A stretch of DNA of 64,000 bases from Candidatus Aenigmatarchaeota archaeon (GTDB lineage Archaea; Aenigmatarchaeota; Aenigmatarchaeia; GW2011-AR5). The notes under the pieces are model-generated. The model was not told where the DNA came from, searched no databases, and saw only the letters and a list, made by a program, of their open reading frames with translations. The stretch spans positions 1-64,000 of the forward strand of contig JACQID010000008.1 of the NCBI GenBank assembly GCA_016198685.1, read 5' to 3'. Numbering within the stretch: position 1 is the stretch's first letter; each line of letters starts with the position of its first letter. Shown here one piece after another: positions 2,700 through 55,252 of this stretch. A program made the position numbers and the translations under genes.

Positions 2700-2803
2700 A
2701 GCCCCGTCGTCTAGTGGTCATTTCGTTTCTTTTTGGAAACGGAAACACAAAAGGATGCAAGCCTCTGGAGCTTGATACAGCGGTTCGAATCCGCTCGGGG
2801 CTA
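2700..2803 (+). tRNA. tRNA-Gln(CUG) with a D-loop intron
   Basis: The acceptor arms AGCCCCG/CGGGGCT pair fully, the T arm is AGCGG-TTCGAAT-CCGCT, and the anticodon arm CAAGC-CTCTGGA-GCTTG gives anticodon CTG. The D-stem GTCT/GGAT is separated by 40 nt instead of about 9, so an intron sits in the D-loop. Excision of 2720-2750 leaves a normal D-loop. The CCA end is not encoded. A PspC gene begins 30 nt downstream and is probably co-transcribed. Confidence 0.9.
2720..2750 (+). other. tRNA-Gln D-loop intron, 31 nt
   Basis: The predicted bulge-helix-bulge consists of a 5' bulge TC|A, a 3' bulge AA|A, a central helix GTGG/ACAC (three pairs plus a terminal G-A), and an inner 9-bp hairpin TTTCGTTTC/GAAACGGAA. 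Cutting after the second base of each bulge yields the D-loop AGTGGTCAA. The layout is the same as in the tRNA-Val intron at 54180-54204. Confidence 0.7.
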
Positions 2804-37682: not shown

Positions 37683-37785
37683 CGCCCTCGCGCGGGCTCG
37701 AACCGCGGACCTTCTGGTTAACAGCCAGACGCTCTACCTATCTCAAAACGCTCCCGCAGGATACGTTTAACTGAGCTACAAGGGC
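37683..37785 (-). tRNA. tRNA-Asn(GUU) with a D-loop intron
   Basis: The acceptor GCCCTTG/CGAGGGC, anticodon arm TCTGG-CTGTTAA-CCAGA (GTT) and T arm CCGCG-GTTCGAG-CCCGC-type pairing are intact. The D-stem GCTC/GAGC is separated by 38 nt. Removing the predicted intron 37740-37769 gives the D-loop AGTAGGTA. A promoter-like TTTAAACTTATTAAAG lies upstream on this strand near 37812-37827. Confidence 0.92.
37740..37769 (-). other. tRNA-Asn D-loop intron, 30 nt
   Basis: A canonical bulge-helix-bulge forms: the central helix CTCA/TGAG has four perfect pairs, the 5' bulge is GT|T, the 3' bulge is AT|A, and the inner helix AAACG/CGTTT closes a 13-nt loop. The central helix uses D-stem bases, so the D-arm can only form after splicing. 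Confidence 0.75.
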
Positions 37786-51892: not shown

Positions 51893-52058
51893 GATATAAT
51901 CTAGGCAATATTTAAAAAAGTGTACTTTAATGCTCCAAAGCGGCAGGAAGCGCAGAAAACGGCCTTTCAGTGGGCCAAACGCCGCTCTGTTTGCATGGAT
52001 TTAAGTTTTGCGAATTAAGTAGCAGTCAGGGGCCGGTAGCTCAGTCGGTAGAGCATCA

Positions 52059-52071
52059 AAGTGATGTGCAC
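52059..52071 (+). other. tRNA-Ile intron 1 (position 29/30), 13 nt
   Basis: A minimal BHB: outer pairs AGA/TCT, central helix GCAT/GTGC (one T-G), 5' bulge CA|A, 3' bulge AC|G, and a loop of only six bases (AGTGAT). It lies in the anticodon stem between positions 29 and 30. Confidence 0.65.
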
Positions 52072-52079
52072 GTCTTATA

Positions 52080-52108
52080 TGACGGCTGAGTATTATGCCA
52101 TCTAGGCA
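52080..52108 (+). other. tRNA-Ile intron 2 (position 37/38), 29 nt
   Basis: A canonical BHB: outer helix TCAGT/ACTGA (complete only after intron 1 is removed), central helix CTTA/TAGG, 5' bulge TA|T, 3' bulge CA|A and inner helix GACGGC/GCCATC with one mismatch. Confidence 0.75.
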
Positions 52109-52176
52109 AACTGAAGGTCGGGAGTTCGATTCTCCCCCGGCCCATTTCTTTCCTATTCATGTTTTCATCACGGATG

Positions 52177-54159: not shown

Positions 54160-54257
54160 GGGCTCGTGGTCTAGCGGCTATTTTCCGAAAACGGAAAAAC
54201 GCAAATGACGCAACCTTCACATGGTTGAGGCCGGCGGTTCAAATCCGCCCGGGCCCA
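54160..54257 (+). tRNA. tRNA-Val(CAC) with a D-loop intron
   Basis: Acceptor GGGCTCG/CGGGCCC (one T-G), anticodon arm CAACC-TTCACAT-GGTTG with anticodon CAC, T arm GGCGG-TTCAAAT-CCGCC. The D-loop is expanded by 25 nt. No encoded CCA. The mvaD ATG is 11 bp downstream of the tRNA end, so they must share a transcript. Confidence 0.92.
54180..54204 (+). other. tRNA-Val D-loop intron, 25 nt
   Basis: BHB with central helix GCGG/ACGC (three pairs plus terminal G-A), 5' bulge CT|A, 3' bulge AA|A, and a 7-bp inner hairpin TTTTCCG/CGGAAAA with loop AAAA. The spliced D-loop reads AGCGGCTAT. Same design as the tRNA-Gln intron. Confidence 0.75.
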
Positions 54258-54268
54258 TTGGTGATGGA

Positions 54269-55252
54269 ATGAAAGCTACAGCAAAGGCGAATGCAAATAT
54301 AGCTCTGATAAAATATTGGGGCAAACGTGACGAAGCGTTGATATTGCCGTATAATTCATCAATATCAATGACTTGCGATGCCATGGAAACCATTACTACA
54401 GTAGAATTCTCGGAAAATTACGACACAGATACGGCAATCATAAATGATGAGGAGCTGTCCTCGGATCAGAAGCGTGTCTATGACCATATAGGCATGATTA
54501 GAAAAATGGCAGGAATAAAGGAAAAAGCAAAGATAGTTTCCGAAAGCAATTTTCCACTTGCTGCGGGATTGGCTTCTTCTGCCTCCGGTTTTGCAGCTCT
54601 TACCGTTGCGGCCGTCGCCGCCGCGGGGTTGAAACTCCCGGAAAAAGAACTGTCCATTATCGCTCGGCAAGGCTCCGGCTCCGCTTGCCGCTCCATACTC
54701 GGAGGTTTTGTTGAATGGAAGAAAGGCAGCAAGTCCTCGGATTCATATGCCGAACAGATAGCAGGCAAGGATTATTGGAAGGATTTCAGGATGATAGCTA
54801 CCATAGTCAAGGAAGGGAGGAAAGCGATTTCATCCCGTTCCGGTATGTCGCAGACAGTGAAGAACTCGCCCTATTACAGCGGCTGGCTCTCTTCGATAGA
54901 GGAAGATCTAAACAGGATGAGAGAAGCGATACGCTCACGAGATTTCGCATCTGCAGGCAGCATTGCAGAGTACAATGCTCTAAAAATGCATTGCACCATG
55001 ATGACATCCAAGCCGCCCATCATGTATTGGAAGCCTGCAACTGTTGAAATAATGAACGCGGTGATGGCATGGCGAGAGGATTTGGAATCATATTTCACAA
55101 TGGATGCGGGTCCTAACGTTAAAGTCATGTGCATGAAGAAAGATGAAAAAGAGCTATGTCAGAGGCTCTCAGAATTGGAGGGAGTTGTAAAGACAATATC
55201 CTGCGCCCCAGGAAGCGGCGCGGCTCTTAGTCAAAAGCATTTGTTTGATTGA
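54269..55252 (+). CDS. mvaD: Diphosphomevalonate decarboxylase
   Basis: It converts mevalonate diphosphate to isopentenyl diphosphate. GHMP-kinase fold with the family strings NIALIKYWGKRDE, LPYNSSISMT, SGSACRSILGGFVEW and the catalytic Asp in TMDAGPNVKVM. Length is 327 aa. The start is the ATG at 54269 (GGTGATGG just before it); an upstream in-frame start would lie in the tRNA. The related phosphomevalonate decarboxylase of haloarchaea cannot be fully excluded, but a PMK gene nearby favours this call. Confidence 0.9.
   Translation: MKATAKANANIALIKYWGKRDEALILPYNSSISMTCDAMETITTVEFSENYDTDTAIINDEELSSDQKRVYDHIGMIRKMAGIKEKAKIVSESNFPLAAGLASSASGFAALTVAAVAAAGLKLPEKELSIIARQGSGSACRSILGGFVEWKKGSKSSDSYAEQIAGKDYWKDFRMIATIVKEGRKAISSRSGMSQTVKNSPYYSGWLSSIEEDLNRMREAIRSRDFASAGSIAEYNALKMHCTMMTSKPPIMYWKPATVEIMNAVMAWREDLESYFTMDAGPNVKVMCMKKDEKELCQRLSELEGVVKTISCAPGSGAALSQKHLFD

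Follow-up and report, generated by a model that had tools for sequence, protein, structure and literature searches.

The DNA analyzed here, referred to as the window, spans positions 1 to 64,000 of the forward strand of contig JACQID010000008.1 in assembly GCA_016198685.1 of Candidatus Aenigmatarchaeota archaeon, the genome of which is ∼94% complete. Two of its tRNA genes, tRNA-Val(CAC) and tRNA-Gln(CTG), carry short inserts within their D-loops, and the window also encodes a tRNA splicing endonuclease, EndA (Table 1). In tRNA-Val(CAC) the central helix pairs GCGG (54174-54177) with ACGC (54199-54202) through three Watson-Crick pairs followed by a G.A step. The motif has CT^A and AA^A as its bulges and an inner hairpin (TTTTCCG-AAAA-CGGAAAA) with a helix of 7 pairs. 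The corresponding elements of tRNA-Gln(CTG) are a central helix of GTGG (2714-2717) with ACAC (2745-2748), again comprising three pairs and then G.A, the bulges TC^A and AA^A, and an inner hairpin of 10 pairs. Each insert thus has two 3-nt bulges at a spacing of four, as in a BHB motif, and both motifs are relaxed rather than strict because the fourth central step is G.A. The original prediction had described these inserts from the sequence, and its coordinates, the lengths of 25 and 31 nt, the bulges, the central helices ending in G.A, and the inner hairpins were all reproduced base for base.

Table 1. Positions of the tRNA genes, introns, and related features discussed in the text.
Feature	Position	Strand	Remarks
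tRNA-Gln(CTG) gene with D-loop intron	2700..2803	+	2803 is the discriminator A
Gln(CTG) D-loop intron, 31 nt	2720..2750	+	
EndA, 203 aa	36205..36816	-	Pfam PF01974 and PF02778; only EndA detected in the genome
tRNA-Asn(GTT) gene with third D-loop intron of the window	37683..37785	-	Missed by ARAGORN and absent from the original prediction
Asn(GTT) D-loop intron, 30 nt	37740-37769	-	At about position 16/17; four central pairs, CTCA/TGAG
tRNA-Val(CAC) gene with D-loop intron	54160..54257	+	Read directly; called by ARAGORN in spliced form only
Val(CAC) D-loop intron, 25 nt	54180..54204	+	Just 5' of A21
Diphosphomevalonate decarboxylase gene	54269..55252	+	Pfam; just downstream of tRNA-Val(CAC)
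Introns of the dispersed family	L153, L154, L155, L156, L157, L167, L169, L177, L179-L182, L184, L185		

Excision of exactly the two listed intron intervals yields 73-nt tRNAs that ARAGORN calls as Val(cac) and Gln(ctg), and the program made no call on either gene in its unspliced form. The spliced Val(CAC) D-arm (GTCTAGCGGCTATGACG) is identical to that of the intron-less Val(GAC) gene of the same genome, and the spliced Gln(CTG) D-arm (GTCTAGTGGTCAAGGAT) has the length and layout of the intron-less Gln(TTG) gene, from which it differs by two C/T exchanges; the mature D-loops are thus normal, as had been anticipated. When the BHB pairing of each insert was compared with 2000 shuffles, under the requirement that cutting regenerate a standard D-loop, p values of 0.009 for Val(CAC) and 0.036 for Gln(CTG) were obtained. 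The same template-restricted parse applied to 29 D-loop inserts from this genome and its relatives gave a combined p of 2e-12 (Fisher), a value that overstates independence because congeners are included. Both genes have orthologues with identical exons in a congener, genome G001. The Val(CAC) orthologue (locus L174) is syntenic, its locus being marked by the diphosphomevalonate decarboxylase gene that adjoins it there too, and its 26-nt intron has C-G in place of G-C as the seventh inner pair. The intron of the Gln(CTG) orthologue (L175) has Watson-Crick pairs in place of two wobble pairs, and 10 of 10 inner pairs are kept. Compensatory change with preserved pairing is therefore found in both introns across the two species compared.

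The tRNA genes of the genome were collected with a custom parser, which returned 33 genes; it merged Gln(CTG) with Gln(TTG) because the 3' ends of these genes are identical, and the addition of Gln(CTG) brought the set to 34. A few of the parses are uncertain, namely those of tRNAs with long variable arms and that at L014. Among the recovered genes of this genome no second gene for the anticodon CAC (Val) or CTG (Gln) was present, and the intact extra copies that had been named as a finding that would overturn the proposal were accordingly not encountered in this set. Both tRNAs also appear to be required: in 27 open reading frames of the window, 187 of the 831 codons for Val are GTG and 234 of the 355 for Gln are CAG. 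Both tRNA genes were missed by ARAGORN in bacterial mode and by Rfam at its gathering score, as might be expected of pseudogenes or silent copies holding random inserts. We nevertheless regard that explanation as very improbable: a second species has identical exons, and its introns have diverged with their pairing kept, other genes for the two anticodons were not found, and excision restores the tRNAs precisely. We conclude from these sequence comparisons that the Val(CAC) and Gln(CTG) inserts are confirmed as genuine D-loop BHB introns.

Introns occur in about 26 of the 34 tRNA genes of this genome, at least six of them with D-loop introns (Val-CAC, Val-TAC, Gln-CTG, Glu-TTC, Glu-CTC, and Asn-GTT). 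The earlier picture of two tRNAs sharing one unusual design was an undercount, since dozens of D-loop introns were also found in relatives and the central helices vary. A GTCTAG-type D-arm pattern applied to 40 genomes (the assemblies used are MAGs, 56-97% complete) located Val, Gln, or Glu D-loop introns across the genus, family, order, and class, with those of Gln and Glu reaching class level with differing sequences. At the same D-loop place the introns of relatives vary, with lengths of 11-48 nt, and the 29 parsed inserts have four central pairs in 18 cases and three in 9. One fit in this parse, at G026:C3, is spurious, its insert being an intron of the dispersed family described below. 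The Val-GAC gene has no D-loop intron in the genome under study versus one of 48 nt in its congener G001; D-loop introns of the clade come and go between congeners. Separately, the D-loop introns of two different genes, Val-GAC of G001 (L171) and Val-TAC of G002 (L172), share the start ATCTGCAAAGGCG, which suggests transfer between isoacceptors. Two additional tRNA genes were noted. One, detected by Rfam at 52030-52144 (+) of the window, has an internal insert of ∼42 nt, its anticodon and splice sites not being confidently assigned; the other, a tRNA-Ile(GAT) gene at L021 (C6:296825-296883 and upstream), has an apparent intron with four central pairs after position 8, at the junction of the acceptor stem and D-stem.

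EndA of the window is the sole copy above noise in its genome. As in α4 enzymes, one short gene encodes both an N-terminal and a C-terminal EndA domain, and the α4 Tyr-His-Lys triad is incomplete: Tyr133 and His149 are kept and the Lys position is occupied by Ala180 (His+31), which is in register with the Lys of 1a79, 3iey, and 4fz2 with no gaps between His149 and position 180. The monomer model (pLDDT 82) matched M. jannaschii EndA 1a79 best (Foldseek TMt 0.90). The nearest relatives of the protein are nearly all from Candidatus Aenigmatarchaeota MAGs. In a set of 62 short Aenigmatarchaeota EndAs, made up of this protein and 61 loci (L087-L147) that are relatives by selection because they were fetched with peptides of the protein itself, Tyr133 and His149 are invariant (62/62), the catalytic Lys position holds Ala in 56, Thr in 5, and Ser in 1, and Lys144, located in the loop between the Tyr and the His, is also invariant (62/62). 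A Pfam sample drawn independently from the phylum agrees, in that every short, His-bearing copy that was read is Lys-less, and the ∼400-aa ε-type EndAs of other Aenigmatarchaeota keep the catalytic Lys.

A sole EndA of this kind is an odd candidate nuclease because a narrow specificity is assigned to the published α4 enzymes (PMC6379350) and Ala mutants of the catalytic Lys are inactive in the A. fulgidus and ARMAN-2 EndAs (PMC12397907). A second nuclease could be missing from a genome that is incomplete, yet the eight genomes of the same family in the Pfam sample have only one EndA match each, and those read are of the Lys-less type. We propose that the enzyme cuts without the usual catalytic Lys, with Lys144 of its enlarged loop as the probable replacement. 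We put forward tentatively, as a possibility we do not favor outright, that the Lys-less EndA with its loop Lys represents a new active-site arrangement that could allow both the relaxed D-loop introns and the spread of the dispersed family. Two unusual EndA arrangements were also observed in relatives. In one lineage (L211) a Lys-less copy of 222 aa lies in tandem with a 171-aa copy that also has no catalytic His, the two probably being catalytic and structural partners; another genome with the short type has a second, ARMAN-like EndA of 418 aa (L170, G015:C50), possibly through contamination or gene transfer.

In archaeal tRNA splicing, EndA cuts the precursor and RtcB joins the exons, and one RtcB gene was detected in this genome. 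BHB introns that are cut by EndA are known at the D-loop (PMC6379350). We consider it highly probable that the two inserts are D-loop BHB introns that would be cut by EndA and joined by RtcB to give ordinary Val(CAC) and Gln(CTG) tRNAs. In the precursors, the central helix would form between the 3' end of the intron and exon bases of the D-loop, G18 and G19 among them, and the two 3-nt bulges together with the inner hairpin would complete the BHB motif. Cleavage by the single EndA encoded in the window would then fall between the second and third bases of each bulge, and the exons would be ligated by RtcB. Both introns are members of a set of D-loop introns that extends across the clade and whose members come and go.

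A distinct family of tRNA introns is dispersed through the clade and has the core NNA-CC-UUU..AAA-GC-UNN-(A)CCAAAA. In the genomes of the family to which this organism belongs, introns with this core interrupt the D-loops of Gln, Asp, Glu, Pro, Gly, and Ala tRNAs and the anticodon loops of Gln, Glu, Gly, and Leu tRNAs; one tRNA-Gln (L153) has two of them, in the D-loop and the anticodon loop. Fourteen copies were typed by hand and their stem pairs counted by script, including L167, which was missed by the tRNA-context filter and recognized as tRNA-Asp by eye. The second pair of the stem flanking the core is C-G in 8 copies, G-C in 3, and A-U in 3, and the third is A-U in 4, U-A in 4, G-C in 3, and C-G in 2, with one mismatch; the flanking stem covaries. 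Judged from the sequences, the spread of introns within the clade is real. The Gly-TCC intron of the genome under study has a degenerate form of the core, which was found neither in the Val-CAC intron (by core search) nor in the Gln-CTG intron (by eye). Spread is thus plausible at the level of the clade but unproven for the two introns of the window. The original suggestion that the shared architecture of the Val and Gln introns reflects intron spread or a dedicated cutting specificity therefore holds in part, being supported at the level of the clade by the observed spread and by the Lys-less EndA with its loop Lys, but not for these two introns.

Much of the design common to the Val and Gln introns arises because the exon that they share (G18-G19 and its neighbors) forms the 5' strand of the central helix. 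We lean toward the view that the likeness is imposed by the site, in that the same exon letters and one endonuclease would select a single BHB solution, so that introns gained independently or retained from deep ancestors come to resemble one another. Consistent with this view, the 5' central strand is exon in all cases (GCGG, GTGG, and CGGC), the introns of relatives at this place are varied in length and in the number of central pairs, and the Gln and Glu D-loop introns extend to class level with different sequences, although the hairpin arms of three introns of this genome look more alike than the site alone requires. Those arms, which follow TTT(T)C..GAAA(A) in Val-CAC, Gln-CTG, and Glu-TTC and accompany three central pairs and an X.A step in each, would be accounted for if the Val and Gln introns, and that of Glu-TTC, descended from one intron that jumped between D-arms sharing GTCTAG, by gene conversion or by transposition at the RNA or DNA level. 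Movement of this sort has precedents in the demonstrable spread of the conserved-core family through D-loops and anticodon loops of many tRNAs and in the intron start common to Val-GAC of G001 and Val-TAC of G002. We judge descent from one intron to be rather unlikely for the pair, however, given that the Val and Gln arms are alike over only about 4-5 bases each, that pairing with the exon dictates the similarity of the flanks, and that both introns are without the dispersed core.

The introns have the same BHB anatomy, with bulges cut after two bases, as the noncanonical introns of Crenarchaeota, Thaumarchaeota, and ARMAN. The D-loop or D-arm is among the noncanonical positions reported (PMC6379350, PMC3293823), and such introns have been catalogued mainly in Crenarchaeota and Thaumarchaeota (PMC8450103). 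By comparison with the known examples, as presented in reviews, those described here differ in their Aenigmatarchaeota host and in their clustering just 5' of the end of the D-loop in Val, Gln, and Glu tRNAs, and the EndA of the organism is encoded by one short gene and is not of the αβ or ε type. The dispersed introns of the clade likewise resemble a known system in that similar introns occupy canonical and noncanonical sites of unrelated tRNAs; they differ in the visible conserved, covarying core, and the two introns of the window are not clear members of the family. With respect to the enzyme, the likeness to the ARMAN-2 ε2 EndA (ASL) and the crenarchaeal CSL lies in a loop peculiar to the lineage, with an important Lys close to the active site, and in the richness of the tRNAs in introns (PMC12397907). 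An assignment of the EndA loop as a crenarchaeal CSL was dropped because the published residue numbers place the CSL and ASL elsewhere: K161 of the ASL and K44 of the CSL lie far upstream of the catalytic Tyr, whereas the loop described here falls between Tyr133 and His149 (PMC12397907). The protein resembles the M. jannaschii α4 EndA (1a79) in size, fold, and placement of the Tyr and His, but K156 of that enzyme is replaced by Ala, Thr, or Ser in the short Aenigmatarchaeota EndAs and the loop is six residues longer. The catalytic subunit of N. equitans (3iey) has a long Tyr-to-His loop of the same length; the N. equitans and ARMAN-2 (K282) enzymes keep the catalytic Lys that the short Aenigmatarchaeota EndAs do not have.

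G18 and G19 are needed for the tRNA elbow. Since the D-loop introns engage these two residues, the affected tRNAs are presumably unable to fold fully before splicing. Because default tools miss the Val(CAC) and Gln(CTG) genes, these would appear as missing tRNAs. The presence of a sole EndA without the Lys makes the roles of the triad testable, as the Lys-to-Ala change kills the enzymes studied so far (PMC12397907). A phylum in which D-loop introns are common and come and go, and in which a dispersed intron family also occurs, is a good place to study the movement of tRNA introns.
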